56,903 nucleotides of DNA from Rhodoglobus sp. (GTDB lineage: Bacteria > Actinomycetota > Actinomycetes > Actinomycetales > Microbacteriaceae). A model generated the notes under the pieces. That model saw only the letters and a list, made by a program, of their open reading frames with translations. It was not told the origin of the DNA and searched no databases. Position numbers and translations under genes: made by a program. The stretch spans positions 1-56,903 of the forward strand of contig JAODLY010000039.1 of the NCBI GenBank assembly GCA_025464445.1, in the 5' to 3' direction. Shown here piece by piece: positions 8,989-54,892 of this stretch (its first letter is position 1; every line of letters begins with the position of its first letter).

Positions 8989-9060
8989 GCCTCTGTAGCT
9001 CAATGGAAGAGCAGTTCCGTCCTAAGGAAACGGTTGGGGGTTCGAGTCCCTCCAGGGGCA
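8989..9060 (+). tRNA. tRNA-Arg (anticodon CCT)
   Basis: Acceptor stem GCCTCTG (8989-8995) pairs with CAGGGGC (9053-9059), D-arm GCTC/GAGC, anticodon loop GTCCTAA with CCT, and T-arm GGGGG-TTCGAGT-CCCTC. The anticodon stem has one mismatch at its base. CCA is not encoded. The last 19 bases plus one flanking base are repeated at 9251-9270. Confidence 0.95.
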
Positions 9061-9134
9061 CGAAATTGAAGAAGGCCGCTGGAACCGCTGGTCGAGCTTG
9101 TCGAGACCTCCGCCAGCGGCCTTCTTCAATTTCG
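9061..9134. repeat. 22-bp perfect inverted repeat after tRNA-Arg
   Basis: Positions 9061-9082 are exactly complementary to 9113-9134, with a 30-base centre that itself contains GGTCGAGCTTGTCGAGACC, a small palindrome of a type scattered through Microbacteriaceae genomes. The arms contain GAAGAAGGCC/GGCCTTCTTC. It can act as the terminator of the tRNA, and forms the left half of the 189-bp element described next. Confidence 0.85.
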
Positions 9135-9250
9135 TACTCGTGGGTGGCACCTCGAAGCACGGGGGTCCCCGGCCCGCAGTCCGCCGCAGTGCGCTCCGGG
9201 ATGCCGCGGCTCCCGTTACTGCGCACTGTGGCGGCGGCACGGCTGGGGCG
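9062..9250. mobile_element. 189-bp palindromic element inserted at tRNA-Arg 3' end (copy 1)
   Basis: This segment lies exactly between the end of the tRNA gene and a copy of its 3' end. The left half is the 22-bp inverted repeat. The right half (about 9151-9250) is a long imperfect hairpin: GGGGGTCCCCGGCCCGCAG and CCGCCGCAGTGCGC on one side, GCGCACTGTGGCGGCGGCAC and GGCTGGGGCG on the other. The same plan, with the same length of 189 bp, follows tRNA-Ala(CGC) at 36370. No coding potential. Calling it mobile is inference from the duplicated tRNA ends. Confidence 0.6.
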
Positions 9251-9270
9251 TCGAGTCCCTCCAGGGGCAC
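9251..9270 (+). repeat. Copy of tRNA-Arg 3' end (att-like)
   Basis: TCGAGTCCCTCCAGGGGCAC here is identical to 9042-9061, the T-loop to acceptor end of tRNA-Arg(CCT) plus one base. Such duplications are left by tRNA-targeting recombination, or as target duplications. No integrase gene lies nearby. Confidence 0.85.
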
Positions 9271-36295: not shown

Positions 36296-36368
36296 GGGCC
36301 CTTGGCGCAGTTGGTAGCGCGCCTCGTTCGCATCGAGGAGGTCAGGAGTTCAAATCTCCTAGGGTCCA
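36296..36368 (+). tRNA. tRNA-Ala (anticodon CGC)
   Basis: Acceptor GGGCCCT (36296-36302) pairs with AGGGTCC (36361-36367); anticodon stem CCTCG/CGAGG encloses loop TTCGCAT with CGC; T-arm AGGAG-TTCAAAT-CTCCT. No encoded CCA. Its last bases are repeated at 36559-36576 and 54556-54573, marking it as the attachment point of the accessory island. Confidence 0.96.
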
Positions 36369-36369
36369 C

Positions 36370-36558
36370 AGACGCCGGGAACGCCGCTCAGTCGAGCGGC
36401 GTTCTTTCGTTAAGCGGAGCGGCGTTCCCGGCGGCTGCGAACCCCTCGCAGCACTTTGGATGAGCAGGGGTCCCCGCCGCGCCGGTTCCGACGCGTTGCG
36501 CCTCCCTCGACTCGATGTCCGCGCTGCCGCGCAACGTGGCGGCCGTGCCGGTGGGGCA
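36370..36558. mobile_element. 189-bp palindromic element at tRNA-Ala 3' end (copy 2)
   Basis: Lies exactly between the tRNA-Ala end and a copy of it, and is 189 bp like the one at tRNA-Arg. Left half: inverted repeat GCCGGGAACGCCGCT (36374-36388) with AGCGGCGTTCCCGGC (36418-36432). Right half (36437-36557): imperfect hairpin starting GCGAACCCCTCGCAGC and GGGGTCCCCGCC, ending GCGCAACGTGGCGGCC and GTGCCGGTGGGGC. The left half differs in sequence from copy 1 but keeps the form, while the right halves are related. No coding capacity. Confidence 0.6.
36379..36405 (+). terminator. Terminator-like hairpin after tRNA-Ala
   Basis: GAACGCCGCT (36379-36388) pairs perfectly with AGCGGCGTTC (36394-36403) around CAGTC-G, followed by TTTCGTT. 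A good intrinsic terminator for the tRNA transcript, located inside the left half of the 189-bp element. Confidence 0.75.
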
Positions 36559-36743
36559 AAATCTCCTAGGGTCCACGCAAATGTTCAAACCCCGCTCAAC
36601 CAGGCTCGGATGCCAGTGATTGAGGGGGGTCTTTCAGTTCGAAGCTCGACGCGGTCGCAAAAGATACCGAGGAGATTCGAACCTCAGCAACTGCGCTTTT
36701 CTACGGTCACCGGGGCCCTAGCCGAAGAACCGCAAGGCTTCGC
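36435..36743. repeat. Left ~310-bp direct repeat of the island, containing a tRNA-Ala 3' end copy
   Basis: This stretch recurs at 54431-54740. The first 95 bases are about 80% alike, the last about 205 bases differ at only three or so positions. At 36559-36576 it contains AAATCTCCTAGGGTCCAC, identical to tRNA-Ala 36352-36369. It also contains, on the minus strand, GAGGTTCGAATCTCCTC, which looks like another tRNA T-arm remnant. The repeat runs into the 3' end of the RHH gene. Confidence 0.85.
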
Positions 36744-37093
36744 TCGATGCTCGAGTTTGAAGGAGCCTTGTCCTTGGCAGCGTCGCGGCTCAGGGGAGTG
36801 ACCTTCTTGGCGGGCTCCTTGGCGAAGATCGCCTCGATGGCGTTGCGCTTGGTTTGGGCCTCGCGCTCGATGTCCGCCCGGACCGTCTCGGCACGCTTGA
36901 GCACTTGAGGATCGGACTTGCTGCGTTCGATCCAGTCCTCCAGCGAGAGACGGATTTCTTCGGTGACACTGCGGTCGTTGAGCTGGGCGATGACGTCCAA
37001 CTGCGCTCGCAGGTCATCGGTGATGCGAACCGCAAGGGTGCGCATCTGACCTGTGGCTCCCGCGTACTGCGGGAATCCGGATGTCTCACTCAT
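36707..37093 (-). CDS. Ribbon-helix-helix-type DNA-binding or antitoxin-like protein
   Basis: 128 residues from ATG 37093 (GAGGAGG eight bases upstream). Residues about 18-55 (RTLAVRITDDLRAQLDVIAQ, LNDRSVTEEIRLSLEDWI) have the strand-helix-helix form of CopG/Arc-type proteins. The tail is Lys/Ala-rich. No toxin gene follows. The last about 12 codons lie within the direct repeat shared with the right island end, so the gene end was probably created by the recombination. Probably a remnant or orphan regulator. Confidence 0.65.
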   Translation of the reverse strand: MSETSGFPQYAGATGQMRTLAVRITDDLRAQLDVIAQLNDRSVTEEIRLSLEDWIERSKSDPQVLKRAETVRADIEREAQTKRNAIEAIFAKEPAKKVTPLSRDAAKDKAPSNSSIERSLAVLRLGPR

Positions 37094-37262
37094 GTGAGCC
37101 ACCTCCTCATTCTTGATGCGGCCGACGAACCGAATGGTTCCTCTGCAAGCCGCACGGCAATGAGGAGTGGACCTCGAATTATGCTCCGATGTGGCGCACG
37201 TTCAATATTCCGATCGCCAAATAGCTTGAGATCCTGCTGTCTTCAGCAGGACGTCCTGAGAA

Positions 37263-38123
37263 TCAGGTCACGGGCACTGGATGATCACGCCGCTTGAGAA
37301 TTACGTCGAGCTGGATCAGCACCTGATCGCGTTCGCTCGTCCACCGATCGACACCCGCGCTGCCGGGCACCAATCCAGTGAGCAACTTGTCGGAAACCTG
37401 GATCGTTGTCTCGATGGCGTAAGCGCAGTATTCGATCAGCATCTGGTCGTCGCGTTGAAGCTTCCGTTGCTTGGAATCAAAAAAGTTCCCAGTCGCCCAG
37501 CCTTGCCCATGGGCCGCCGCCGACATGCCCGAGTAGAGTTCTGGCGCCTCGCGGTAGATCTCATTCAGGAGCCGAGTCGCGAGTTCAGTGAGTCCCGTTT
37601 TCGTCAAAGACAATCCGAAGCTGACCAGGAAATCAGCAATGCGCTGTCGATACTCTGCGACGGGTACCTTTACGACGTCAGCGCTTCCGCGATGGTGGAC
37701 TTGCAGCTGGTGCTGCTCCGGGTAGCGGAGATCCGCGTGCTCTAGGGATGCATGCCGCACGAGCAGCTCATCGGCTGTCGCGCTCGACAGTATCCAGTCA
37801 GCACGAGCGAGAGCTTCAACGGTTCCTCGGGCCAATGTGGCGAGTGCGACTGTGTAGCCGTGAGTCGAGCGCGCTAGCTCAGCCAAACCTCGTCCTTGTT
37901 CGCACGCGGCAAGCAGTGCTCGTTCAAGAGCGAATCGGATGCCGTCGAGCGCGGGGTTGCCATCCCACAGACGGCTGTTCGCCCACTTCGCGTCAATTGC
38001 GCCAGCAGCCGCGAAAGCCCAGCCCTCTTCGTACGCCGTCGTCGCCAACCGAGCACTTGCGTTCATCGTCCTGAGCACCGCAGCGGTCAGCATTCGGCGA
38101 TCCCGCTCAAGTAGTTCGACCAT
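37263..38123 (-). CDS. Hypothetical helical protein next to mcrC-like gene
   Basis: 286 residues, mostly predicted helix. Notable stretches: LLAACEQGRGLAELARSTHG, LSSATADELLVRHASLEHAD and LYSGMSAAAHGQGWATGNFF. The SAAAHG segment occurs in several uncharacterised bacterial families with buried His residues. No membrane helix, nuclease or ATPase motif. It follows the McrC-type gene by 115 bp on the same strand and could be the last gene of the restriction cassette or a separate unit. Confidence 0.6.
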   Translation of the reverse strand: MVELLERDRRMLTAAVLRTMNASARLATTAYEEGWAFAAAGAIDAKWANSRLWDGNPALDGIRFALERALLAACEQGRGLAELARSTHGYTVALATLARGTVEALARADWILSSATADELLVRHASLEHADLRYPEQHQLQVHHRGSADVVKVPVAEYRQRIADFLVSFGLSLTKTGLTELATRLLNEIYREAPELYSGMSAAAHGQGWATGNFFDSKQRKLQRDDQMLIEYCAYAIETTIQVSDKLLTGLVPGSAGVDRWTSERDQVLIQLDVILKRRDHPVPVT

Positions 38124-38238
38124 GGATCAACTCTGGTCCTATCGACCGACAGGATGTCCGCGCGAAGAGAATGCGTGAGGTGCGAATGTTCGCGACGACT
38201 CGAACGAACCGAGCAGCTCCGTGAGAGCGACGCCCAAG

Positions 38239-39531
38239 CTAGTCCAGTTGCGGATCCCGCGCAGCATAGGAAATCTGACCAGACTTTGCGCCTGCAACCA
38301 AGCGATCGAACCCGTCTCGGGTGGCAAGGCCCTGCACCTGCACCTCGATCCCATCTACGGCGATGTCGTCGATGAGAACCTGGTCGAACCTGCGCCACTC
38401 GCCGGTGCTGAGGTTCGCGACAGACTTTGAGCTCGGGTAGAGCAAGACAATGTAGCGGGAGTCGGCAGCCCGCACGAACGCGAGGGACTCGTATAGGTCG
38501 CTGCTCCGAATCCGCGACGCCTTGGCCAAGTGTGTCTTGTATTTCGCATCGAGCAGCAACGTTTTTGCACCACCACGTTCGACGGTGATGTCCGGCGTAA
38601 CTTCAACGGGGCGATCCCCTCGGAAACCGAGAGTGAGCCGCGCCTGTCCCGTGACACGCCGACCAAGGTTAGAACGCCGCACGATGTGCTCACATAGCTG
38701 CTGCCATGCCTGCCAGGTCGAGAGTACGAAGCCCGGCCCGGTGAATCTTCCTGAAGTGAGATCTAGCCCGAGGCCATTCGCGACGAGCTGAGACAACTCG
38801 TAAGCCGTGTCCCAACTGCTGTAGCGCGGGGGTAGTGACGCGAAGGTCGTCGGGGTGCGTCCCTGGGGCCGGAATTGGCGGGCGCGAAGCTCGAGCTGAG
38901 CCTCAGTATCAGCATCGGATACTTCTGAAATGAGCGTCTCGAGCGCCGCGGCAAGCGTGGCGTTGTACGGGTTGCGCTTTGTCAGTTCAAGATTGCTCAT
39001 GCGGAAGCCGTCTGGTTCCGGCAGCGTCAGTGACTCCCAGTCCACGTCTCCGTCAAGTGAGAAGTCAGACCGTGAATGACGACGATAGCTCCGTATTGGT
39101 CGGCGCTGGTTCTCATCGTGCATCGAGAGTAGAGACCGAGCAATCAGTGTCGCGAGCGCGCCACGGTCTGCAACATCCGCCGTAATCTCGTCGTGCGCAA
39201 GTAAGTGGCCAGTCTGCACGAGTACCGCGAGTACGAAGAAGTCCATGCGCCAGGTCGGCGACGCCGGATCCAGGAACTTCGGCACGACTTCCAGCTCGAC
39301 GCGCTCATTCAGACGAAGGAGGCCAGCTATGCCGTCCATGCGCCATGCGCCCGCTGCGTTGACATCAATCGGATCGGCGTCGTAGCCGAACTGAGCTCGC
39401 AAGCGATCGTTCAACTCACGTAACTGAACGCCTATCTCGGCTTCCGAGACCCCGCTGGCTCGCGCGACCTCAACAGTTGTCGCAGGGCGACGTTCCAGTT
39501 CGTGGAACACCAGCCGGATGCGCTCGCTCAT
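38239..39531 (-). CDS. McrC-family restriction subunit
   Basis: 430 residues. The C-terminal half holds the PD-(D/E)xK nuclease core: EVTPDITVERGGAKTLLLDAKYKTHL, with Asp, Asp and Lys in place; RYIVLLYPSSKS follows. The N-terminal region (LRLNERVELEVVPKFLDPAS) and central segment SLPPRYSSWDTAYELSQLVA are typical of McrC. McrC couples to the McrB GTPase and cuts DNA. Its ATG overlaps the stop of the McrB-type gene by four bases (ATGA). Here it sits in a five-gene overlapping cassette with two adenine methyltransferases. Confidence 0.88.
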   Translation of the reverse strand: MSERIRLVFHELERRPATTVEVARASGVSEAEIGVQLRELNDRLRAQFGYDADPIDVNAAGAWRMDGIAGLLRLNERVELEVVPKFLDPASPTWRMDFFVLAVLVQTGHLLAHDEITADVADRGALATLIARSLLSMHDENQRRPIRSYRRHSRSDFSLDGDVDWESLTLPEPDGFRMSNLELTKRNPYNATLAAALETLISEVSDADTEAQLELRARQFRPQGRTPTTFASLPPRYSSWDTAYELSQLVANGLGLDLTSGRFTGPGFVLSTWQAWQQLCEHIVRRSNLGRRVTGQARLTLGFRGDRPVEVTPDITVERGGAKTLLLDAKYKTHLAKASRIRSSDLYESLAFVRAADSRYIVLLYPSSKSVANLSTGEWRRFDQVLIDDIAVDGIEVQVQGLATRDGFDRLVAGAKSGQISYAARDPQLD

Positions 39532-40640
39532 CCCGAGGCGATGAGGGTGAGGAGGCGATAAAGCTCGTCGGGCGCGGGGCGAACTGGTCCGTTGATTCGC
39601 CGGACCGACTGGCCAGCGAATGTTGCCTCAGTGAGTGTGTATGGGCTTCCCTCCTCCTCCGCGCGAAGCACGTCGGACACCGCGCGGGTATTCCCAAAGA
39701 ACACCTCGTTGACGTGCGCATGGATCTTGGCCCAGACGTGTTCAAGGTATTCGTTTGCTTCGGCGAGAGACCCGCCCGGCGCAACACTCGGCATCAGTGC
39801 ACCCTGCCCGAGGCGGTAGGGCTCTCCGCGGCCCATGAGAATCCGATCGTTGATCACCTCCCATGCACGAACGAGCGCTTCGTAGAGGTCGGATGGCGAG
39901 CTCGGCAATTCTGGGAGAGGGCCAGCGGCTTCGGGAAGTCCGAAGTGTTGACGAAGTACTGCAACGCTCGGCTCCAGTCGATAAGGGTAGAACCGGCGAA
40001 GGAAGGCCACGTCCAGCGGCTCGACGCTCGTGTCCGCCTCATTCATCGCCGCGAGAATGTAGACGTCATTTGGAATCGCGAACCGTTCGTGCTCGCCCCC
40101 GTCACCGAGGATCTCGAACTCCTGCGTGGTCTCAGTCAACGCGCCATTTGAGTCGAGCCGCTTGTCAGCTTCTAGCCCAACGATTGCGCTCCCAAACGCG
40201 GCAACTGCCGGACCACGGTTGATCTCGTCGATGATGACGAGCGCAGCGTGCCCGTCATGTGCGGCATGTAAAGAAGCCCGATGCAGGGTTCCGCTCGTGA
40301 CTTCGAAGTCGCCAGCTTGACCGACCTTCGGTACCAGTCCCCGCATAAAGTCCCGGTACTTGGTGTTCTGATCGAATACGGTTGGGAAGGTCTGGCGGCT
40401 AACCGTGCGGTCCGGGCTGGGAAACCAATCTGGAATAGAACTCGTCGCTGGCGGAAGCGGGATCACGCCGTAAGGGTTAGCGCCCGTATCTCCAAGCTCC
40501 CACTCGAAGAACCGGCGCACCTCGGATAGCAGACGAGACTTTCCTGTCCCGGGCGGACCGGAGATGATCACGTTCTTGCTGACAACTAGGGCGCGTAGTA
40601 CAGCTCGCGCGTCAGGGCCGATATCGCTCTCACTCGGCAT
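39528..40640 (-). CDS. McrB-family AAA+ GTPase
   Basis: 370 residues from ATG 40640, overlapping the previous gene by 11 bases. Walker A GPPGTGKSRLLSEVRRF, Walker B ALVIIDEINRGPAVAAFGSA (the McrB-specific DEINR form), sensor ILAAMNEADTSVEPLDVAFL and RRFYPYRLEP. The N-terminal DNA-reading domain of classical McrB is absent: only about 25 residues precede Walker A. The DNA-reading role may therefore belong to the 200-residue protein encoded just upstream; this is inference. Confidence 0.9.
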   Translation of the reverse strand: MPSESDIGPDARAVLRALVVSKNVIISGPPGTGKSRLLSEVRRFFEWELGDTGANPYGVIPLPPATSSIPDWFPSPDRTVSRQTFPTVFDQNTKYRDFMRGLVPKVGQAGDFEVTSGTLHRASLHAAHDGHAALVIIDEINRGPAVAAFGSAIVGLEADKRLDSNGALTETTQEFEILGDGGEHERFAIPNDVYILAAMNEADTSVEPLDVAFLRRFYPYRLEPSVAVLRQHFGLPEAAGPLPELPSSPSDLYEALVRAWEVINDRILMGRGEPYRLGQGALMPSVAPGGSLAEANEYLEHVWAKIHAHVNEVFFGNTRAVSDVLRAEEEGSPYTLTEATFAGQSVRRINGPVRPAPDELYRLLTLIASG

Positions 40641-41232
40641 GACAGAACTGCGCTCCCGAGCCGAACTCGTAGTATCCCTGCACGGGCACAAGGCTCCCGC
40701 GGCGACCGGAGTTCTTGTTCTCTGTGACCGCCAAACACGCCAAGATGGCACTCGTGATTTCCGGTGCCCAGGCGCTACTTCGCAGCTGGTCCTCGTAGGC
40801 ATACTCAACCCGAATGGACTGGTCATTGAAGAGAATAAAGAGAACGAACACTTTGCCGCGATTGGTCGCGGGAAGTCGACCACCTAGCGCCGGACTCTGG
40901 TGAATCCGCGCGATCCGATCCTCGTTTGGCCGCGACGAAGTCGGGGGCCAGTACTCCAGTTGCGTTGTCTGCGGGTTCTTTGATGCGTCGAGATAGATCA
41001 CGTCGGCCGTGCGGATAGCGGCGCCGCCTCGCCCCGTCCCAGTCTGTGTGAAGATGCGATGCATCACCGTTCGAAATGTTCGGAAGGGAACTCGCAGATC
41101 GCGCGCACCACCACCGTTCGTGCTGTCATTCGACGTCGCAGTGAGTTTCCGTAGATCGCCGGCGACTACTTCCTTGTAGACAACGAGCGTCGGTCTCAAC
41201 GATGAGCTGATCGCCACTCCTGTCCTTCCCAT
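40630..41232 (-). CDS. Unknown 200-residue protein inside the methyltransferase-McrBC cassette
   Basis: 200 residues. It overlaps the preceding methyltransferase gene by 37 bases and the McrB gene by 11, so it belongs to the cassette. Conserved-looking parts are VVYKEVVAGDLRKLTATSND, GGGARDLRVPFRTFRTVMHR and GKVFVLFILFNDQSIRVEYA. No catalytic motif is obvious. By position it could be the DNA-recognition or effector subunit missing from the short McrB. I do not recognise its family. Confidence 0.7.
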   Translation of the reverse strand: MGRTGVAISSSLRPTLVVYKEVVAGDLRKLTATSNDSTNGGGARDLRVPFRTFRTVMHRIFTQTGTGRGGAAIRTADVIYLDASKNPQTTQLEYWPPTSSRPNEDRIARIHQSPALGGRLPATNRGKVFVLFILFNDQSIRVEYAYEDQLRSSAWAPEITSAILACLAVTENKNSGRRGSLVPVQGYYEFGSGAQFCHAE

Positions 41233-43370
41233 ACATATTCGGCCGGGACGAAAGGTATGGCACCCATCTCCAGCGCGCGATCCACACGATCGGCTTCGAT
41301 CTGTGGAACATCATCGTAGAGCTTACCGAGGTCGCTTAGAACGCAGTCACGCGTGATAGTAGACGCGGACTCTCCATAGAGCGTCGGTTGTCCGCGGTCT
41401 AGAAGTGGGAAGTCATCGAGCACCAGACGCATCTGGTCAACGGTGACTCCCCACGTGAAGGCGGTAAGAGCGTCGATACGCGAGCGCAGCCTCCCGACCA
41501 AACCACGATCGACTTCGGAGTTACCTTCTGCGGCAGTGACGGCCTGCGCCAACTCGATGAGCGAAAGACCGATATCGCTCGCCGGCGTGATTTTAGGCAA
41601 AGGAAGCGCGTCGAGAATGAAGAAGTTGACGGTCGTTGTGACGACCCTGCGCAACATCCAGTCCACAACAAGCGAGTTGGTCAGGGCCAAGAACAGGCCC
41701 TCAATGGCCGGGTCTCCCTGGGGGAAGTTAAGAGTCGGCACCTTATTGCCGCATACAACACCGGCGGGCACGCGCGCTACGAGCAGGGATCGCTCGTTGG
41801 TCTGCCCAGTGATGTCGCAGAACCCGATGCGTGATCGCGAGATCCGCCCACCGGTCCCCGCTGACAGATCACTCGGTGAAATGAACCATTGCGTTTCCAG
41901 CTTGTCGCCGGAGAGTTCCTGGGGTTCCCAGATAGCGGCGCGACCCTCGCCGCTGACATAGCGCTTGGATCGCCACCGGTACTGACTGACATGCCGTCCC
42001 TCCAGCAGCGGGACGGCATCTCCAGTCTGACTTGAGCTGAACAGATGGCGGTCCAGGGTCATGTCCACTTCGCGACGATATTGCGGATGCCACGGACCAG
42101 CCAGGTCTCCCACCGTGATTGCCCTACGCGACAGGTCGGCGTATAGGCGCCACTCGGCATCTGTCTTGACCTCAGGCAACGAAAAGTCCGGGCGAAGCGA
42201 GGCAAGTCGTTCTCGCGGGATCTGGACTGCCTGCTGGGGTAGTCCACCTGTTCGATCTGCGACGCGAAGCTCGATCGCCTCCTTCTCCCCGTTTCCGATT
42301 CGAGCGGTGACCGCCAAGAATTTGAACCGAGTGTCGATTGCGAAATGCCGCGCGCGGTTCTCGATGACGGAAATGGACAACTCGCTTGATACCTCGGCCA
42401 GCTCGCGCCGGAGCATCTCGGTTCCCTGAGATCGGACGAGGCCAGCGGGAAGGAGCATCGCGACAATGCCGTCGTCGGCTGCGAGGGACAATCCCAACTC
42501 TAGGAACAGCTTGTAGAGGTCATGTTCCCCGCGCCCCTGGAGGCTTGTGTCGCCTGTGACGGAGCGGATGTAATTCAACAGCTCCGTACGCGAAGCGGAA
42601 AGGTCTATGTCGACGTCGAAGCTCTCCCCGTAGCGCCGTGACTTCCCCGCGCGCTGTGCCGACTCGTGTCGCGAGGCGCGCAACCGCTCCCACGGCGGGT
42701 TGCCGATGACGAGAGCGGCACCCCGACCGGCGAGAACGCGCCAGGCGTCGCGACTCTTCAAGCTGTCCTGGACGAGAAGCCGGTTATTGAATCCCGCGAC
42801 AGCGTCCAGGCTTGTGGTGAGGCTTGCCACCGAAAGGCGCGCGCCGCGGAGCGCCACCTCAGACAAATCGGCCCCCGTCAGTCGGTTGCGGATGACCTCG
42901 TCTCGCAGCGCGCCGTCGGGGACTTCCATCACCGCGGCGACTAGCAAAATGCCGGAGCCGCAGGCGGTATCTACCCAGATCCCGTCTGTCGAGATCTTCG
43001 GGACGCTTTGACCCGCCACAAGCTGGGCGAGCCTCCAGTCGGTGTAGTACGCTCCCGAGCTGCGCTGGTCGGCGCTCGTCAGCACCTCCCGACTCAGCGC
43101 GGAGAGCGCCAATGGGATCGGAATCCCGGTTTGGGCGATCCGCCCGAGCACGTCATCAATCCAGGCAGAGGACAGACCCGTCGGCACTGTGTTCGGTCCC
43201 GCGAAGCGCAGCCAATAGTCGGTCACCGCCCATCCGGCGTGCTGACCAGCCACCATCTCGAGCAGAGTTAGTCGCCCCGACCAGGTGCCATCTTCCAGCC
43301 CGAGCCTGCGCGCAAGCATGGTCAGTTCGGTATCTACACCGCGGAGAAGCGTTGCCTCGACACTCTTCAC
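41196..43370 (-). CDS. Type IIG/Eco57I-like adenine-specific DNA methyltransferase
   Basis: 724 residues. Motif X/I region SSGAYYTDWRLAQLV and GIWVDTACGSGILLVAAVME (AdoMet site), motif IV VIGNPPWERLRASRHESA (NPPW, N6-adenine type), motif VIII-like DGIVAMLLPAGLVRSQGTE. The C-terminal half has a target-recognition-like segment (PLLEGRHVSQYRWRSKRYV, LVVDWMLRRVVTTTVNFFIL). No nuclease motif, so it modifies DNA only. Its start overlaps the D12-type gene stop (four bases). Confidence 0.9.
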   Translation of the reverse strand: MKSVEATLLRGVDTELTMLARRLGLEDGTWSGRLTLLEMVAGQHAGWAVTDYWLRFAGPNTVPTGLSSAWIDDVLGRIAQTGIPIPLALSALSREVLTSADQRSSGAYYTDWRLAQLVAGQSVPKISTDGIWVDTACGSGILLVAAVMEVPDGALRDEVIRNRLTGADLSEVALRGARLSVASLTTSLDAVAGFNNRLLVQDSLKSRDAWRVLAGRGAALVIGNPPWERLRASRHESAQRAGKSRRYGESFDVDIDLSASRTELLNYIRSVTGDTSLQGRGEHDLYKLFLELGLSLAADDGIVAMLLPAGLVRSQGTEMLRRELAEVSSELSISVIENRARHFAIDTRFKFLAVTARIGNGEKEAIELRVADRTGGLPQQAVQIPRERLASLRPDFSLPEVKTDAEWRLYADLSRRAITVGDLAGPWHPQYRREVDMTLDRHLFSSSQTGDAVPLLEGRHVSQYRWRSKRYVSGEGRAAIWEPQELSGDKLETQWFISPSDLSAGTGGRISRSRIGFCDITGQTNERSLLVARVPAGVVCGNKVPTLNFPQGDPAIEGLFLALTNSLVVDWMLRRVVTTTVNFFILDALPLPKITPASDIGLSLIELAQAVTAAEGNSEVDRGLVGRLRSRIDALTAFTWGVTVDQMRLVLDDFPLLDRGQPTLYGESASTITRDCVLSDLGKLYDDVPQIEADRVDRALEMGAIPFVPAEYVWEGQEWRSAHR

Positions 43371-44437
43371 GCTGTTGCCGCGCTCCGGATTGGCTCGTTG
43401 ATGGCCGCGACGTTCAGCTGCACCGGCATGACCTCGATGACATATTCGCTCACAGTGTCACCGGACGCCGATGCGCGGGCATTTGGCCGGTACCGTCCGA
43501 TCTGCTGGATGGGGTGCAGAGTGACCGAACCTGCCTCGGTGAGGGCGTTGACGAGATGTGCCTGGTGGACATGCCCCTCGTTGCTATAGCTCAGGAGCAC
43601 GCGTGACGCCTTAGTTCCGAGCACCAGGCGGGTGAGCGCATCGAGCGCTCTCGTCTTATAACTGAAGTCCGAGGCTTTGGACTGCCAGGGGCGGAGACCA
43701 GTCACGCCGCCGACGTCAGGTGAATCGCCGGCATGAAGTGTTTCCAGCAAGTGGTAGTAGGCACTGTATTGGCGCTTTGTGTAGGGCGGATCGAAGTAGA
43801 CCGTGTCCTGCGTCGTCGTGGGGACAGCAAAGACGTCCTTGACGCTCGCAACCACATCAGTGGTGCGTTGAGGAAGGAATCTCGGGACAACTGACACCGA
43901 ACGAAGCGCAGTCGAGGTCCAGTCCTTCAAGAAACAACCATAGGTGCCGGAGATGTTCGCCACACCGTTGGCAGCCTGCATGAGATCGGCCAGGAGGAGG
44001 TGCTCCTCGGTGACGTCGATCTCGCCAGCCGAGTCCCATCGGCGAATCAGGCTCCTCATCGCGTCGAGCTTGGCGGCGTTCGCCTCGGTGAAATACTTAC
44101 GCTCGACCCCGCTGTGATGTTTCGAGGCGGGGCTGTACTCGGCGTGCAGGAATCCAGCATGGGGCGTCACCGCATTAAGCATCTCGACTGCACGAAAGTA
44201 TCCCCCGAGGCGCGCAAAAGAGACGTTACCCAAGCCGACGATCGCGCCGACGCTCATCGATACAGCAGAGGGAAGGGAGTCATTCACCGTGACCGCCCAA
44301 CCCCGGTTGGCCGCCACCGCTGCCACCGCGCCGGTACCGCTGAAGGCGTCAACGAAGCGCCCTCCATCAGGGGGCCCCGCCAAGTCGACTATGGCCTCAG
44401 CAACCCTCGCCTTGCTCCCGATGTAGCGGACGCCCAT
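43367..44437 (-). CDS. D12-class adenine-specific DNA methyltransferase
   Basis: 356 residues from ATG 44437; GTG 44449 is also in frame but the GAGGA site suits the ATG. N-terminal MGVRYIGSKARVAEAIV and GRFVDAFSGTGAVAAVAANR form the AdoMet pocket; the catalytic DPPY is in DTVYFDPPYTKRQYSAYYHL. This is the Dam/D12 family. First gene of the overlapping five-gene cassette. Two adenine methyltransferases with different folds suggest an asymmetric target with one enzyme per strand, or two modifications; unproven. Confidence 0.92.
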   Translation of the reverse strand: MGVRYIGSKARVAEAIVDLAGPPDGGRFVDAFSGTGAVAAVAANRGWAVTVNDSLPSAVSMSVGAIVGLGNVSFARLGGYFRAVEMLNAVTPHAGFLHAEYSPASKHHSGVERKYFTEANAAKLDAMRSLIRRWDSAGEIDVTEEHLLLADLMQAANGVANISGTYGCFLKDWTSTALRSVSVVPRFLPQRTTDVVASVKDVFAVPTTTQDTVYFDPPYTKRQYSAYYHLLETLHAGDSPDVGGVTGLRPWQSKASDFSYKTRALDALTRLVLGTKASRVLLSYSNEGHVHQAHLVNALTEAGSVTLHPIQQIGRYRPNARASASGDTVSEYVIEVMPVQLNVAAINEPIRSAATA

Positions 44438-44705
44438 CGTCTTCCTCACCTTCCGTAGATGCCAGAATCGCGGGGTTCATGACTGCCGTCACTGGTTTTT
44501 ACAACCCTAGCTTCGGTGCGCTCCGAATCTGGGCAGCGCCGCCGTGGGTGTCCAAGCATCGCCAGATACATAGAGCGCGGACGGCTCGATTCCCCGTTTG
44601 GCCGTCAGGCTAAGGCGAGCCCGTGACATTCAGTTCCAACTCGCAACGACCTGAACGGCCCATGTATCGACAGCCGCTGTCGGCCGGTGCCTCAATACTC
44701 CCTCC

Positions 44706-44879
44706 ATGACCAAGTGCCGGAAGGTGAAGTACCGCGATCGAATTGCGGCACTCCTCGCCATGGCAACAGTGCGACGTCAGGACAAGTCGCATCGCTCGAA
44801 GGTTGAGGCTCGGGCGTACTACTGCGCGGACTGCAAAGGTTGGCACCTCACCTCGAAAAATCGCTGGAGCGCCGCCTAG
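44706..44879 (+). CDS. Small Cys-Cys-Trp-His protein (copy 1)
   Basis: 57 residues starting MTKCRKVKYRDRIAALLAMA and containing YYCADCKGWHLTSK: a C-x2-C-x2-WH motif able to form a small zinc knuckle together with an N-terminal Cys. A similar 55-residue protein is encoded at 49512. Proteins of this kind occur widely in Actinobacteria and their phages, function unknown. No ribosome binding site is visible; AATACT eight bases before the ATG could be the -10 of a leaderless transcript. Divergent from the methyltransferase cassette; the region 44438-44705 shows nothing else. Confidence 0.7.
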   Translation: MTKCRKVKYRDRIAALLAMATVRRQDKSHRSKVEARAYYCADCKGWHLTSKNRWSAA

Positions 44880-45049
44880 CAAGCGCCTGAAAGGCTTTGC
44901 CCCGCTGGTCCCGGCCTAGAAAGAGGTTCGTAGCCAGTCGACGGTTATCGCCTGGCCTGGATTCCGTTCGTAGCCGTCAGTCCCCGCCGCGCTGGCAGAG
45001 TCCCCGATCGAATCGGTGGGCGTGTCTGCAGCTCGACGGATAATTGAGC

Positions 45050-46729
45050 ATGGCCATCGCAGACGATCCCGCAAGCATCGATCTGTTGGTCGTGGTCAAC
45101 GCCGATGTCCCGTCCGAGCTCCAAGCGGTCGGCTTGGCGTACTGGGATCTTCGCGGCGTCGATACCGATTCGGGTGACCCTGTCTGGACTCATCGAACAA
45201 GTGACACTGGCTTCAAAGCTTGGTCTGGAACAGCGCACTACGCAGCGGCAGCGGCAGCCACCGCGACAGCAATGGGATATCGATGCGGTACCTGCCGGGA
45301 GCCCCTAACACTCACGTCCCGTCAGGCGCTCACGGATGCGGTGCGCGGCACCCCCGTCGACTGCCGCTCCTGCAACCCATTGGCGGACGAGCGGGCCGCG
45401 AAGATCCTCGACCCGAAGTCGCTCGATGAGAGGGCCCAGCGGGCGGCCAAGGCGGATGTTGATCAGCAAACGGCAGACGAACTGCTCGGACTCGATGCCG
45501 CCCGCAAGCAAGCGATCGCCGCGAAGTACAAGGTTGGAGAGGACAGCGGTGAGTACCTGATCGACCACGCGTCGCTGCTAGCCAAGGTTGGAGCGCTCTC
45601 CGTCCTGCACGCCGTTGGCGACCAAGGTGGCCTGATCTACCCGGTCGACAACTCGGACGACACGATCGGCCCCAACTATTCATTCAGTCACGAACTGTTC
45701 CAAACGGCCTGGTACAGCGACCTTATCCAGATCCACCCGACCTCACCGGTCAACGCCTTCGTTTGGAAAGACGGTGCGACGCTCGGCGACCGTATCTACG
45801 CAAATCGTGTGCGCTTCTTCACGCCAGGGGTAGGGACGCTAGAGAAGCGGCTCGAAGACTTCGCCCGGGACCTGCGGCTGCGCATCGCCCTCCCGACAAT
45901 TTGGTCGACCGAACGCGCGGAGTTGGCTGCGCTGGCCGAGCGGATCATCGCCGAAGAGTCGGGTCGCTACTTCGTTCACATGGTGCGTGAGCACAACCTG
46001 CCTGACCTGACGGAGACACACGAAGAGGCGCTTCGGACTACGACAACGCGCGGGGCTTCGCGGTTCGCCATCGGGCATCTGTACCGAATGGCGTGGTCCT
46101 CGGCTCGTGATGCATCCAGCGCGTACCAACGCAACTCAGGTATGTCCAAAGAGAAGGCGATCACCTACGGCCTCAAGCAGCTGGAGCGCTGGGTGCAGCG
46201 GGCCACCGACGATACAACCCTGCTCAACGACCCGTTTAGCGAAGACAAGAAGAATCTGCCGCTCTCCGCGGTGACCGGCGTGGTGTTCCGCACCATCTTG
46301 GGTCTCGATCCGATGAGTGCCGGCCCCGTCGAGATCGCCGGCGCCCTCGCCGGGTCACCGGATGCTGAACTACTGCGCCAATGCGACGAGGGCATCCCTG
46401 ACCGCAACGAGCTGATCGAGTGGATTCGCACCTCGACCAGCCAGTGGGACGGTGCCTCCTTCCGCCGCACCCTCGCGCAACTCGAGGACTGGGAGCCCGA
46501 CCTCTGTGCGCCCCACTGTGCCCACGAGAGAGTTGGACGTGTGGCGAAAGAGAGTGGCCGCGTGTATGACCGGATGGTCGCGCGAGTCGGCGATACCGAT
46601 GCGGCAATCCTTACAGCCGAGGCCACCGGGGTAGCGAACGCGCTTCGGGACGGCGTTCGAACCGGCGATGCGTTGCTCGCAGAGATGGTCCGCCTGCTCG
46701 ACACCTCGTCGGATGAGTCTCCTTGGTGA
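45050..46729 (+). CDS. Unknown 559-residue protein with zinc-ribbon-like Cys pairs
   Basis: Begins at ATG 45050. Residues about 75-106 carry C-x2-C (YRCGTCREPL) and a second C-x2-C (VDCRSCNPLA), which could bind zinc. A helical middle and C-terminal part follow (EERIIAEESG-like stretches, AAYRNSGMSKEKAITYGLKQ-like region, LDDWEPDL); a CAPHCAHER segment brings two more Cys and two His. No ATPase, nuclease or membrane motif is evident. It heads a plus-strand group with EcsC-family, UDG-like and GIY-YIG genes, so a role in the same process is plausible. I do not recognise it. Confidence 0.7.
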   Translation: MAIADDPASIDLLVVVNADVPSELQAVGLAYWDLRGVDTDSGDPVWTHRTSDTGFKAWSGTAHYAAAAAATATAMGYRCGTCREPLTLTSRQALTDAVRGTPVDCRSCNPLADERAAKILDPKSLDERAQRAAKADVDQQTADELLGLDAARKQAIAAKYKVGEDSGEYLIDHASLLAKVGALSVLHAVGDQGGLIYPVDNSDDTIGPNYSFSHELFQTAWYSDLIQIHPTSPVNAFVWKDGATLGDRIYANRVRFFTPGVGTLEKRLEDFARDLRLRIALPTIWSTERAELAALAERIIAEESGRYFVHMVREHNLPDLTETHEEALRTTTTRGASRFAIGHLYRMAWSSARDASSAYQRNSGMSKEKAITYGLKQLERWVQRATDDTTLLNDPFSEDKKNLPLSAVTGVVFRTILGLDPMSAGPVEIAGALAGSPDAELLRQCDEGIPDRNELIEWIRTSTSQWDGASFRRTLAQLEDWEPDLCAPHCAHERVGRVAKESGRVYDRMVARVGDTDAAILTAEATGVANALRDGVRTGDALLAEMVRLLDTSSDESPW

Positions 46730-46926
46730 ATTCGAGATTGAGATCTCAGTAGCCCCAGCGACGGCGCGCGGGCACCTCCCGCACCAAGACCCGGCGACGG
46801 AACGACGCGTTGCGTGCTGAAGCCGATGCGCTTCGACAGGAAGCCAAGGTGAGCAACTCAGCGGGTCTGATGAGTGGCGATTCGACCTCGCGTGATCTAC
46901 TGGCACCGACCCGGAATGAGGATGCA

Positions 46927-47982
46927 ATGACCGCAGAGTTGTCTCCGTACGAGAAGCAGGCATGGGAGAAGCTCATCGCTGCCGAGCGTTCTCGACGCAA
47001 TAGCCTGCGGGTTCGCGCGACGGACAAGGTCAATGGTGCGGTGTCGACTGCAGTGGCGTTCGCGGGCGACGCGGTCAAGAAGATACCGGGCGGCGCGGTC
47101 GTAACCGACGGTATAGACGCGGGAATCAAGACCGCCCTCAGCGGCGCGGCAAAGGCCATCTTCATCCCCGCGATCGCCTCTGTCTCGGTTGACCGACGCG
47201 CGAAGCGGCTGCGCAAGCGTTACCCGGAGGTAGGCGATGCGTCGCCATTCGTGACACTCGATCTGCAGGCGCTGGATAAGGGGCGCCCACGTCAGGTCAT
47301 CCCCTTGGCGAACGCTGCGACCTCAGCGGGCGCGTCGATCGCGATCACCGGCGCGGAGGTCTCCACGACCGTCAGCGGTGGTGCGACGGCAGGTGTCGTG
47401 GCCCTTGCCATCGCCGGCGACGTCGCAGTGTCACTGGGTTTGCTCGGTCGCTCGATCGCGGAAGTCGCCGTTCACTATGGCTACGACCCCAGTGAGCCCG
47501 AAGAGGAGATCTTCCTCATGAGCGTCCTGTCGTACAGCTCAGCCGCGAGCCTGGAAGGAAAGACAGCCGCGCTCGCCGGGCTGTCGAAGCTAGCTCAGCA
47601 GATGATGCGGCAGGCGACGTGGAAGGAGCTGGAGAAGGACGTCGTCGTCAAGGCGATTCAATCGATCTTCACCAAACTGGGCCTCCGTCTCACCCACAAG
47701 CGGCTCGCCCAAGTCGTGCCGGTAGTCGGCGGCATCATCTCGGCGGGCCTGAGCTACGACATGCAGAACCGAGCCCTCCGGGACGCGAGCCGTATCTACC
47801 GCGTCCGCTACCTCGTGAACAAGTACGGCCTATCGTTCGATGAGTGGGTCCAGCGTGCGACACAGGACGCGGAAGCAGATCCCACGCTTGGCGAAGCGCC
47901 GGACGATGAGGTCATCGACATCGAGGCAGAAGTCGAGGCCGCGATTGAGGCAGATGCCGACGATGCGGAGCGCACCTCGTGA
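46927..47982 (+). CDS. EcsC-family protein
   Basis: 351 residues from ATG 46927 (GAGGA seven bases upstream). The central region is Ala/Gly-rich and amphipathic as in EcsC proteins: TALSGAAKAIFIPAIASVSV, GASIAITGAEVSTTVSGGAT, AIAGDVAVSLGLLGRSIAEV, and VHYGYDPSEPEEEIFLMSVL, which is the strongest EcsC match. KRLAQVVPVVGGIISAGLSY follows. EcsC proteins associate with membranes, function unclear; some lie in defence islands. Its stop overlaps the next start (GTGA). The 197-bp gap before it shows nothing. Confidence 0.85.
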   Translation: MTAELSPYEKQAWEKLIAAERSRRNSLRVRATDKVNGAVSTAVAFAGDAVKKIPGGAVVTDGIDAGIKTALSGAAKAIFIPAIASVSVDRRAKRLRKRYPEVGDASPFVTLDLQALDKGRPRQVIPLANAATSAGASIAITGAEVSTTVSGGATAGVVALAIAGDVAVSLGLLGRSIAEVAVHYGYDPSEPEEEIFLMSVLSYSSAASLEGKTAALAGLSKLAQQMMRQATWKELEKDVVVKAIQSIFTKLGLRLTHKRLAQVVPVVGGIISAGLSYDMQNRALRDASRIYRVRYLVNKYGLSFDEWVQRATQDAEADPTLGEAPDDEVIDIEAEVEAAIEADADDAERTS

Positions 47983-48527
47983 GCGAAGATCCGTGGTACT
48001 CAGAGCGGCGCGCCCGCTGGAAGCCGGAGCACGTTCGTTTGCTGCTCATAGGGGAGAGTGCCCCCGATGATGGAGGCGACATTGCGAATCGTCGCTTTTT
48101 CTACGCCGACAACCTCTCGGGGAAAGACGGGCTCTTCCGTGAGGTAGTTCGCGCGTTCTACAACGACCCGCCGTTGACCAGCGGGCCGAACGCGAAGACC
48201 CCGTGGCTCGAGAAGCTCAGAGACGACGGTGTCTACCTAATCGACCTGGCCGCAGTCCCCGTGAACTACCGCTCAGCGGTCGAGCGAGAAGCCACACTCA
48301 AGCAGAACGTCAACGAAACCGTGGCCCTTTCCCGCGACCTGGATCCCCAAGGCGTCGTGCTGGTGAAGCAGAACGTCTTCGACCTGCTGGAGCGACCGTT
48401 CCGCGCGGCCGGCCTTCCGCTGCTTCATGACGCCATGATTCCGTTCCCCGGTAGCGGGCAACAGAAGCGCTTCCGCGAGCGGTTCGCCGATGCGCTGGCC
48501 CGCCTCGAAGCGGAGAATAGGGTTTGA
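47979..48527 (+). CDS. UDG-superfamily-like protein
   Basis: 182 residues from GTG 47979, coupled to the EcsC gene. VRLLLIGESAPDDGG has the GE-x-P loop like motif A of uracil-DNA glycosylase superfamily proteins; RFFYADNLSGKDGLFREVVR, WLEKLRDDGVYLIDLAAVPV and VVLVKQNVFDLLERPFRAAG fit that alpha/beta fold. The activating Asp/Asn typical of true UDGs is not obvious, so it may act on another modified base or only bind DNA. Moderate certainty from motif alone. Confidence 0.55.
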   Translation: MSEDPWYSERRARWKPEHVRLLLIGESAPDDGGDIANRRFFYADNLSGKDGLFREVVRAFYNDPPLTSGPNAKTPWLEKLRDDGVYLIDLAAVPVNYRSAVEREATLKQNVNETVALSRDLDPQGVVLVKQNVFDLLERPFRAAGLPLLHDAMIPFPGSGQQKRFRERFADALARLEAENRV

Positions 48528-48579
48528 TCCGTTTCTCTGGGGCTGATCGTGGCGGACCGCATGAGAAGGTGACCATCGG

Positions 48580-49392
48580 ATGGGTTTGACGCTTGGCCCC
48601 GTCCTGCTCGATGCGGGCATCGATCCCGCGTCTGCCTTGGTGATCCGTCATGCTTATGTGAGGGAACACGAAGACAGCGGTCTGCCGGGCATCCACGCCG
48701 ACTCGACCGATGCGGAGATCATCGCCTACACGCAGAACCAGTCCGCGGACACGAAACGGTACCCAGCGGTTCCAGCTCGCTATTGGGTCGTGTTCATAAA
48801 GGAGGGCGGCGACCAGGCGCGACTCTGGTCGGTCGTAGAGAACCGCGGCGAGCTCTCGAATGACGGCATCCGACGGGTCTTCGATGTCGGGCAGTCGGAG
48901 CACATGGCGGACCTTAGAAATCGGCTCGTGATCGGGTGGCGGTCACCGCGCACCTGGTGGATGAACGCCACCACGGCTGCAACGTACCCGGTATTCGGTA
49001 TCGCTGACGCCGAGCCGATCCCATTTCCAGGCTTCGACCGTCTCGTCCTGAGCCACGTGCAGCTCCAGGCCGTGATGCGCGAGCATCGGTATGCCTCATG
49101 GCGCACGGCACTCTCATCGGTAGTGGGCATCTACCTCATCACCGATAACCGGGACGGGCGCCAGTACGTCGGCAAGGCGGACGGAGCAGAAAGCATCCGT
49201 CAGCGGTGGACCGCCTATGCGACGAACGGCCATGGCGGGAACGTCGAGTTGCGCGGCCTTGACCCGACCAGCTTCCAGTTCTCGCTACTTCGCGTCTTTG
49301 ATCCAGCGACACCTACACGCGACATCGATGCTGCGGAAAGCCACTTCAAAGACGCGCTCGGAACGCGTCGGCACGGATTGAACCGAAACTAG
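48580..49392 (+). CDS. GIY-YIG nuclease-domain protein
   Basis: 270 residues from ATG 48580 (AGAAGG ten bases upstream). The C-terminal 90 residues form the GIY-YIG domain: VVGIYLITDNRDGRQYVGKA, then IRQRWTAYATNGHGGNVELR with the catalytic Arg, and a late Glu (DAAESHFKDALGTRRHGLNR). The N-terminal 180 residues (LLDAGIDPASALVIRHAYVR) are of a type found in front of GIY-YIG domains in predicted restriction or defence proteins. Probably cuts DNA or RNA. Confidence 0.85.
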   Translation: MGLTLGPVLLDAGIDPASALVIRHAYVREHEDSGLPGIHADSTDAEIIAYTQNQSADTKRYPAVPARYWVVFIKEGGDQARLWSVVENRGELSNDGIRRVFDVGQSEHMADLRNRLVIGWRSPRTWWMNATTAATYPVFGIADAEPIPFPGFDRLVLSHVQLQAVMREHRYASWRTALSSVVGIYLITDNRDGRQYVGKADGAESIRQRWTAYATNGHGGNVELRGLDPTSFQFSLLRVFDPATPTRDIDAAESHFKDALGTRRHGLNRN

Positions 49393-49511
49393 CTTTATCC
49401 GCGAGGCATCTCGCCCCTGCTAGATTCGTCCAGACGGCGGTCCAACGGAGAATCGCAGATCTGGCCACTGCAGTGCAGGCCCCAACCCATGTCTGGAAGG
49501 GATGCATTGTT

Positions 49512-49679
49512 ATGTCTGCCTGCACCAAGAAGTCTTACTCGAGCCCCGGCGAGGCGCTCCGGGTACTTTCGATCTTGCTACGTCGCGGCTACCCGAATCT
49601 CACTGGCGTGCACCCGTGCTCCGCCTGTCACGCGTGGCACATCACGTCGAAGAAGGATCCAAGACTGACGCTCAGGTAG
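49512..49679 (+). CDS. Small Cys-Cys-Trp-His protein (copy 2)
   Basis: 55 residues, MSACTKKSYSSPGEALRVLS through HPCSACHAWHITSKKDPRLT. It shares with the protein at 44706 the early Cys-x-Lys, the C-x2-C-x2-WH core and a following TSK. A ribosome binding site (GAAGGGA) lies about ten bases upstream. Function unknown; two paralogues in one island are notable. Confidence 0.75.
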   Translation: MSACTKKSYSSPGEALRVLSILLRRGYPNLTGVHPCSACHAWHITSKKDPRLTLR

Positions 49680-49691
49680 CACTGCGGGCCG

Positions 49692-50480
49692 CTACGACTC
49701 AGTGACGACCTCGTTGGTCGACGTGTCGTCGAGTGCTCCCGGATATCCGTCCAGATAGCGCCGGTACATGACCCGTCCGCCGAAGACGTCTCGGACGTGC
49801 GTCCCGACCACGTGCTGCAGCGCTGCGGCTGGAGCACCATTGAATCCCCATCGATCCTTGCCCTCGTCCCAGGGCTGCTCGGAAGGGAACCAGTCGTCGA
49901 TCCGGTATGCCCCGCGGACGACTCCGTAGGCGACGCCGAGGCAGAACTGCGCACGGTCACGCACCCACGGCGCGATGCGCCAATGGCCGCGAGTCTGTTC
50001 GAACATCTGTTGGTCGGTCGAGTCAGGACGCCAGCCACTCTGGATCTTGACCATGATGACTGGCTCGTTGATCGGCGGGCAGGGAAGTGCTCGGTGACGC
50101 GCAACCACAGCGGGCAGCGTCGCCAGTCCTTCCGATCCCGAGTGGTGCCCCCGCACGAGGTTAGTAAGCAGATGACCGTCCGCAGCAAACCCATCGATCA
50201 CGGCCTGCTCAACGATGAAGGACGTCGCCTCGTCCTCGATCCCGGTGCGTAGAAACAGAAGGTCGACCTGGAGCCCTGCCGCTTCGATCTCGTTTATGGT
50301 CTTCAGCTTGGCGCGTTCGGACTCAGGGTCCTTACCGGCCTCGCGAACATGCGCATTGATCCGGTCACCGATGCCCTTACCGATGTAAAAGACGCGGCCA
50401 TCGCGCGGGTCCCGGAGTGCATAGACGTAATACCGAAGCACAGCGGCCACCTCGCCGGGGATTCGCACTAGGGCGGGCAT
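49692..50480 (-). CDS. LEM-3-like GIY-YIG nuclease-domain protein
   Basis: 262 residues from ATG 50480; ATG 50501 is also possible and neither has a clear ribosome binding site. N-terminal GIY-YIG domain of the LEM-3-like type: LRYYVYALRDPRDGRVFYIG, KGIGDRINAHVREAGKD, with EQAVIDGFAADGHLLTNLVR containing the conserved Glu/Asn. The C-terminal 120 residues (WRIAPWVRDRAQFCLGVAYG, GYRIDDWFPS-like) look like a binding domain. Second GIY-YIG protein of the island, opposite in strand. Confidence 0.85.
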   Translation of the reverse strand: MPALVRIPGEVAAVLRYYVYALRDPRDGRVFYIGKGIGDRINAHVREAGKDPESERAKLKTINEIEAAGLQVDLLFLRTGIEDEATSFIVEQAVIDGFAADGHLLTNLVRGHHSGSEGLATLPAVVARHRALPCPPINEPVIMVKIQSGWRPDSTDQQMFEQTRGHWRIAPWVRDRAQFCLGVAYGVVRGAYRIDDWFPSEQPWDEGKDRWGFNGAPAAALQHVVGTHVRDVFGGRVMYRRYLDGYPGALDDTSTNEVVTES

Positions 50481-50720
50481 ACAGACGAGGCTAGCGAGCA
50501 TGACTGACTTAGTGGGGCCGCTTGATGCGCTTCCGGTGACATCCAAGATCACCGCCGCGAACGACGAGTCTCCGGGATCGGGTCGCTAGGCTTCCACGGG
50601 TGGAGGGCCGGCGTCATCGGGTCGACGATGACTGACCGATCCGAGAGGTCGAATCGTCGCGAGCTTCTCATCCGAACGCTGTGGCAGAGGGCTCAATTGA
50701 GATAGCTAGCGAACGCGGCT

Positions 50721-50768
50721 GTGAGGATCGCGAATCCTGACACCGCGCTCCCTGAGGGCGTTATGCGC
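50721..50768 (-). pseudogene. 3'-end fragment of an HTH gene
   Basis: This 48-bp stretch is about 85% identical (41 of 48) to 53937-53984, the 3' coding end of the HTH gene downstream. Read on the minus strand it gives AHNALRERGVRIRDPH. Nothing else of that gene remains. The 300-odd bases 50502-50866 otherwise hold only the promoter of the TrlF-like gene. The pair of fragments brackets the TrlF module. Confidence 0.75.
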
Positions 50769-50829
50769 GGGCGGGAACCTCACCGTGTGGAATGTACCGA
50801 TGGTGTTGTTTTGATCACATCGCTTGTGC

Positions 50830-50857
50830 TTGACGTGTCGTCCGCTGCTGTCATAAT
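50830..50857 (+). promoter_or_regulatory. Promoter of TrlF-like gene, nearly leaderless
   Basis: TTGACG (50830-50835) and CATAAT (50852-50857) are 16 bp apart, a good sigma-A match. Transcription would begin at about 50864, two or three bases before the ATG at 50867, so the mRNA would be leaderless or nearly so, a common translation mode in Actinobacteria. Confidence 0.75.
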
Positions 50858-50866
50858 CAGGGGCAA

Positions 50867-53518: not shown

Positions 53519-53543
53519 CGAATCGAAGTGCATAGTTCATAGT
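53515..53543 (+). promoter_or_regulatory. Promoter of the small gene after the TrlF-like gene
   Basis: TTGACG (53515-53520, overlapping the TrlF stop codon) and CATAGT (53538-53543) are 17 bp apart. The expected start at about 53550 is five bases from the ATG at 53555, and no ribosome binding site is present, again pointing to a leaderless transcript. Confidence 0.6.
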
Positions 53544-53554
53544 CGTCTCTCCCT

Positions 53555-54302: not shown

Positions 54303-54366
54303 TAGCAGTTCATCTATTTGACGAGTTGCCAAATTGTGATTGCAGTAACTTCGCAGTACCCCCACC

Positions 54367-54880: not shown

Positions 54881-54892
54881 CGTGCTCTGGAT

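Follow-up and report, generated by a model that had tools for sequence, protein, structure and literature searches.

In the genome of Rhodoglobus sp. (Microbacteriaceae), a tRNA-Arg gene is followed by a gene-free stretch that closes by repeating the last 20 bases of that tRNA, raising the question of whether such segments belong to a family of elements fitted to tRNA genes, and of how they came to lie there. From the window (the whole stretch of DNA analysed, 56,903 nucleotides, part of contig C44 in a 2.84-Mb genome), the original prediction was a non-autonomous element family specific for tRNA 3' ends, or one that brings a fitted tRNA end with it. This proposal is largely supported: the conserved hairpin of the element occurs in 117 places in 15 of 27 genomes of the genus, the element is polymorphic in occurrence at tRNA-Ala(cgc), and the majority of copies are fitted to the tRNA that they follow. 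The accompanying idea of a fixed 189-bp element found no support.

Each unit has the order X, T, X', H, X (Table 1). X stands for the 3' end of the tRNA (T-loop onward), T for a terminator palindrome, X' for an inverted and imperfect repeat of X, and H for the right-hand hairpin, which is conserved but imperfectly paired. At tRNA-Arg, the repeat of the last 20 bases that had been noted 189 bp downstream is exact, and the perfect 22-bp inverted repeat behind the tRNA was also found as described. The tRNA-Ala unit has a like plan, with an 18-base copy of the 3' end at 189 bp; the equal length, which had been taken as a shared property, is a coincidence, because the span from tRNA end to the start of H ranges from 39 to 228 bp. 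The hairpin of a third unit, predicted at 54367, does end in the tRNA-Ala end; what is missing is a tRNA ahead of it, and the unit closes an 18-kb stretch that starts at the tRNA-Ala unit (54431-54740 is 95% identical to 36435-36743). A fourth H had been missed.

Table 1. Features of the tRNA-associated units in the window (positions in nucleotides)
Feature	Position	Strand	Remarks
tRNA-Arg(CCT)	8989..9061	+	X1 (last 20 nt) = 9042-9061
Terminator palindrome behind tRNA-Arg	9061..9134	+	22-bp perfect arms 9061-9082 / 9113-9134
X' of tRNA-Arg unit, imperfect inverted copy of tRNA 3' end (..GGTGGCACCTCGAA..)	9135..9161	+	by eye
Hairpin H of tRNA-Arg unit	9162..9250	+	covariance model match, 61 bits; copy belonged to training set
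X2 of tRNA-Arg, exact 20-nt copy of 3' end	9251..9270	+	
tRNA-Ala(CGC)	36296..36369	+	X1 (last 18 nt) = 36352-36369
Palindrome from within tRNA-Ala 3' end through terminator	36362..36444	+	28-nt arms, 89% complementary
Remainder of X' region ahead of H, tRNA-Ala unit	36445..36466	+	by eye
Hairpin H of tRNA-Ala unit	36467..36558	+	covariance model, 84 bits
X2 of tRNA-Ala, exact 18-nt copy of 3' end	36559..36576	+	
Cargo between two H-X modules	36577..54367	.	
Third unit: perfect 19-bp inverted repeat and X' region	54368..54461	+	inverted repeat at 54368-54430
Third hairpin H	54462..54555	+	covariance model, 73 bits
X2 of tRNA-Ala once more, after third H	54556..54573	+	
Fourth hairpin H, without tRNA end behind	54788..54881	+	covariance model, 66.8 bits

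The left palindrome holds the tRNA's own terminator, with arms extended back into the tRNA end. The left inverted repeat is not a separate element; it is the terminator, enlarged by a stretch that repeats the tRNA end in inverse orientation. In 71 units, the median length of the inverted repeat that is anchored at the end of the tRNA is 18 nt (range 7-30), while the same measure at 30 tRNAs of an H-free genome (G005) gave a median of 8 (range 5-27), the two ranges overlapping and the searched stretches differing in length. X' aligned to its own tRNA with a mean score of 17.4 in these 71 units (permuted mean 12.55, maximum 13.35), and it matched its own tRNA above all other tRNAs in just 16 of them. 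The sequence adjacent to tRNA-Ala(cgc) varies from species to species, but in the units seen it looks self-complementary by eye. The loop of the tRNA-Arg palindrome contains GGTCGAGCTTGTCGAGACC, a REP-like sequence present at many further places in the genome.

A covariance model of H was built from 24 copies, which necessarily match it themselves; the E-values that it gives are rough. With E up to 0.01, it located the 117 places mentioned above, far more than the few copies in the window, and left 12 of the 27 genus genomes without H. Under stricter filters (E up to 1e-4), matches were found in 22 of 249 genomes of the family and in 17 of its 85 genera, the window's genome included. An exact pattern of one H class, run against a collection of 84,980 species, retrieved 7 stretches: six labelled as Microbacteriaceae, Salinibacterium, Amnibacterium or Rhodoglobus and one from an uncultured actinobacterium. 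By sequence, H divides into two main classes, with either GCCGGTT or CAGTC next to its internal loop, and its loop comes in two sizes.

Our main count used 110 of the 117 H; among the other seven, four have a tRNA just upstream. A same-strand tRNA or tmRNA lies 39-228 bp upstream of 74 of the 110, and these cover 24 tRNA kinds by ARAGORN label, tmRNA counting as one, the label Pro(tgg) being doubtful and the Met label spanning several tRNAs. The suggested check was for a hairpin followed by the tail of its own tRNA: over 18 positions, the bases after H match that tail at 17-18 in 48 of the 74, at 14-16 in 9 and at 13 or fewer in 17, while only 0.4% of non-cognate pairings reach at least 17. 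The own tail outscores every other isoacceptor in 52 of 74. At the junction, H ends in AG (33), CG (31), AT (8), CA (1) or CT (1), and in 57 of the 74 it is followed directly by TCGA or TCAA. The window's genome carries 13 tRNA-linked H for 46 tRNA genes and another genome, G021, carries 14 for 45.

Chance was gauged by a census of 3'-end copies of at least 11 nt within 600 bp downstream of tRNAs, set against shuffled sequence. Such a copy follows 7 of 30 tRNAs examined (of 45) in G021 (shuffled mean 0.77, maximum 4), 6 of 30 in the window's genome (of 46, two of them with hardly any or no sequence downstream; shuffled mean 0.49, maximum 3) and 0 of 30 (of 46) in the H-free G005 (shuffled mean 0.3, maximum 2). 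Four of the six copies in the window's genome stand directly behind H and the other two do not.

The remaining 36 of the 110 H have no tRNA within 400 bp; where longer stretches around such H were inspected, 8 of 11 hold a tRNA further off. H without any tRNA end occurs in loci L075, L203, L207, L210 and L214. Short-loop H in other genera of the family (L203, L207, L210, L214, L225) have no tRNA within about 1.5 kb. In L075 and L160, and also in L161 and L152, H lacks the tRNA end and is followed by AGCGAAACC; by eye, the L075 copy sits inside a REP-like repeat.

Selection maintains the base pairing of H on the tRNA-sense strand. In an alignment of 107 H, itself fitted to the model, 92.9% of cells are paired as compared with 82.1% when shuffled; cells changed on both sides number 243 (63.7 shuffled), and the covariation score is 0.335, compared with 0.134 for shuffled and at most 0.066 for slid versions. 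Changes on both sides affect 16 of the 23 base pairs of H. The terminal loop varies among copies. G-U cells (242) far outnumber A-C cells (19), and a duplex palindrome should treat both alike, so a single tRNA-sense strand, RNA or DNA, appears to be the form seen by selection. Speaking against this, five full sites folded singly as DNA were not clearly better than shuffles (z 0.34 to -1.77).

Several observations, among them the 12 genus genomes without H, support mobility of the units. At tRNA-Ala(cgc), examined in 25 genus genomes, the unit is present, decayed or absent depending on the species, so relatives do not all carry the same segments at the same tRNA. Leaving the two tmRNAs apart, both H classes occur at 11 of the 15 tRNA labels found in at least two genomes (11 of 16 with tmRNA included). 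Arrays at one tRNA combine unlike H, either of different classes (L121, L130) or of different sequence within one class (L186, L179), and are thus not the product of simple recent tandem duplication. Tandem copies exist as well, near-exact in L072 and with the second copy cut short at tRNA-Arg(tct) of G022. Part of the family is nevertheless old and inherited, since H are somewhat more alike across species at the same tRNA (0.691 versus 0.626 otherwise); for 19 of 74 copies the most similar H belongs to the same tRNA, compared with a mean of 4.2 and a maximum of 13 under permutation.

The proposed comparison with empty sites succeeded in so far as unit-free relatives exist at tRNA-Ala(cgc); it yielded no base-exact filled/empty pair, because downstream flanks seldom align. 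Five tRNA-Ala(cgc) loci used as queries gave no useful alignment of their downstream flanks to other loci. The gene downstream of the tRNA-Arg(tct) unit in G022 does align (69% and 65%) behind the like tRNA in G000 and G005, which are without the unit there and differ from G022 in spacing and intervening DNA. A DNA search with 36370-36620 found no phage or plasmid source, and pattern scans of viral contigs gave 0, 1 and 0 stretches, the single one (L306) looking by eye like the edge of a prophage with host DNA in it.

While many units are gene-free, with 135-203 bp from tRNA to copy, some modules border cargo (the window, L178, L226 and L228), with defence-type genes in the first three. The 18-kb cargo of the window encodes McrBC-like, AAA, Eco57I-like and D12 methylase, EcsC, GIY-YIG and PHP/AAA (Ppl/AriA-like) proteins, with PADLOC matches for 5 of the 10 proteins scanned. 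L178 (tRNA-Arg, about 9.6 kb) carries a DNA methylase and a PDC-S19-type protein, and L226, which lies at tRNA-Pro and has three H, carries a CAP12-type TIR protein; in the L177 cargo, PADLOC gave no match in three proteins. The cargo of L178 and L228 ends in nearly the same T-X'-H-X as the tRNA-adjacent unit. In L226 the third H nearly repeats the tRNA-adjacent T-X'-H-X, and the second shares just the last bases before H. At cargo ends, small genes for HTH proteins adjoin H and are encoded on the opposite strand (window 53922-54395; L178 1088-1723; L177 2589-2942 and 8265-8588); all four match HTH_38, the window gene and both L177 genes below the cut-off, and we regard these HTH_38-like genes as a lead and not as a result.

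Three further observations bear on possible islands at tRNA genes. In G013, a genus genome without H, positions 2400-2835 of L029, behind tRNA-Ala, are 94% identical to about 36781-37216 of the window, which suggests, from the sequence match, an exchange of island content. L029, L041 and L171 share a GAAGGCTTACTAGAA-like motif immediately downstream of X2, or of the tRNA end itself, at tRNA-Ala and at tRNA-Arg; it perhaps marks an island end. In G000, the stretch C55 40434-102215 is possibly one large island: it contains an integrase-like gene at 99544, a tRNA (tail TTCGAATCCCCTTGGATCC) and, about 56-62 kb off, two H that carry the end of this tRNA.

No enzyme gene was found in the gene-free units, which are too short, at 135-203 bp, to hold one for an integrase. 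The tyrosine recombinase family PF00589 is represented in 27 of 27 genus genomes. Of the three such proteins in the window's genome, the two high-scoring ones are probably the Xer pair; PF00589 had no match on the window's contig, nor in 15 cargo ORFs, and its matches elsewhere do not separate IntI from other integrases. Among 19 further integrases, from 10 of the 15 carrier genomes, no extra integrase common to carriers was evident.

The reading we favour, to which we give an even chance of being right, is that the units are mobilisable tRNA-anchored cassettes, gene-free or sometimes gene-carrying, inserted at the T-arm through recombination that uses a single-stranded, folded site. A unit would enter by site-specific recombination at the T-arm, bringing a new tRNA 3' end and terminator and displacing the old 3' end beyond H; the tRNA would stay intact since the cassette supplies its new 3' end. 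Single-stranded X'-H-X would fold into the att site to be recognised, as with integron attC, by an enzyme acting in trans. We infer that H is the recombination site and that a tyrosine recombinase is the most likely enzyme. A bolder extension, which we put forward tentatively as possible, is a pan-tRNA cassette system in which one machinery would read the T-arm of tRNAs and tmRNA together with the folded single-strand hairpin, self-complementary cassettes would swap in identical 3' ends, and more than a quarter of a genome's tRNA genes would serve as platforms collecting phage-defence genes on cassettes without integrase.

H could instead be the conserved right end of tyrosine-integrase islands or their satellites, the gene-free units being remnants after gene loss. 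An integrase gene does adjoin the tRNA in L182, L185, L241 and L244, with H-X at the far end; an integrase C-terminus (below Pfam's cut-off) stands right behind the first H-X of L226; and X2 would itself be a T-arm-like site. In L180, L182, L183, L185, L241 and L244, however, a tRNA 3' part, the second one in L180, L182, L183 and L185, stands ahead of the terminator and is followed by T-X'-H-X, so that these islands seem to have entered upstream of a pre-existing T-X'-H-X. Compensatory base pairs would not persist in mere remnants, a single H family serves 24 tRNA kinds, and we judge the island origin unlikely, while still a serious contender. It is improbable that H-X is a non-mobile RNA element, produced along with the tRNA or downstream of it (in processing, as a decoy, or in control by 3' ends), with X2 kept by selection or gene conversion. 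The sense-strand G-U bias, the compensatory changes, the place behind tRNA and tmRNA and the fit of X' to X would all suit such an RNA. Against it stand the terminator-like palindrome between tRNA and H, the 12 H-free genus genomes, the frequent shortening of X2, and the arrays, cargo borders and switches of H class at one tRNA. In addition, Rfam gave no match to H in the whole window (gathering cut-off) or in four loci (E up to 1), and in the four loci nothing besides tRNA rose above gathering.

Very little probability attaches to a single-strand transposase (IS200/REP type), a TnpB guide RNA or a reverse-transcriptase element, even if a hairpin with a matching 20-nt tail recalls omega-RNA or primer-binding-site layouts. 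Searches of the 27 genus genomes led us to reject HUH/REP, TnpB guide RNA and a resident reverse transcriptase: Y1_Tnp (HUH transposase) and the TnpB-type PF07282 (Cas12f1-like_TNB) were each found in 0 of 27, and RVT_1 (PF00078) in 6 of 27, including 3 of the 15 carriers and not the window's genome. Least credible of all are old duplicated terminators with chance tRNA copies. The left palindrome does hold the tRNA's terminator, which is kept in some congeners; the copy is nonetheless tRNA-specific at 24 kinds and absent at the 30 tRNAs examined in G005, and the census against shuffles together with the own-tail fit rules this origin out.

For the way in which integrase-free cassettes gather behind tRNA genes, a conserved hairpin placed precisely where the tRNA end is repeated is a concrete candidate for the attachment site and would explain the intact tRNA. 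A hairpin followed by a tRNA end can moreover serve as a marker for finding islands, and in this family both the base pairing and the fit of the tRNA end are conserved across 24 tRNA kinds together. We found no earlier description of a hairpin-plus-tRNA-end unit in the open-licence literature, and the unit may be an undescribed way to slot DNA behind tRNA genes.

Islands and prophages with tRNA-targeting tyrosine integrases are flanked by a direct repeat of the tRNA 3' end, with the T-loop as the crossover zone. The present units share the repeated 3' end at both ends; unlike such islands, the minimal unit has no integrase and one hairpin family serves all 24 tRNA kinds, although some nearby islands do carry an integrase. 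REP/RAYT repeats are likewise small intergenic hairpins in many copies, whereas H lies mostly behind tRNAs with a fitted end and the 27 genomes have no Y1 transposase match. Integron sites recombine at an R box with the core GTTRRRY; the junction here is not an R box, H ending mostly in AG or CG. Also unlike integrons, the units have a T-arm anchor instead of attI, a tRNA-sense fold bias and a site that carries the tRNA end. No intI was identified, although PF00589 matches do not distinguish it from other integrases. A folded hairpin at the cassette end resembles attC in form only: as the available text of PMC2727003 presents attC, the likeness extends to an imperfect hairpin, a variable terminal structure, unpaired interruptions, structure kept over sequence, one site per cassette, and arrays.

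Tycheposons, bordered by a tRNA and xerD, are comparable as tRNA-bordered, cargo-carrying elements, and the available part of their description in PMC10872708 does not include the hairpin. Besides integron attC sites, the closest published parallel is with additive flexible genomic islands, in which, according to the portions available, cassettes pile up behind a tRNA and are flanked by direct repeats of its 3' end; the repeat is the last 20 nt of tRNA-Lys in Methylophilaceae, and in Actinomarinales the ends of cassettes repeat a portion of the tRNA (PMC10872708, PMC7771536, PMC4119200). The window, L178, L226 and L228 have such tRNA-anchored cassettes with tRNA-end repeats. Unlike additive flexible islands as described in those portions, they are marked by a conserved hairpin, by a gene-free fitted unit, and by one family that serves many kinds of tRNA.
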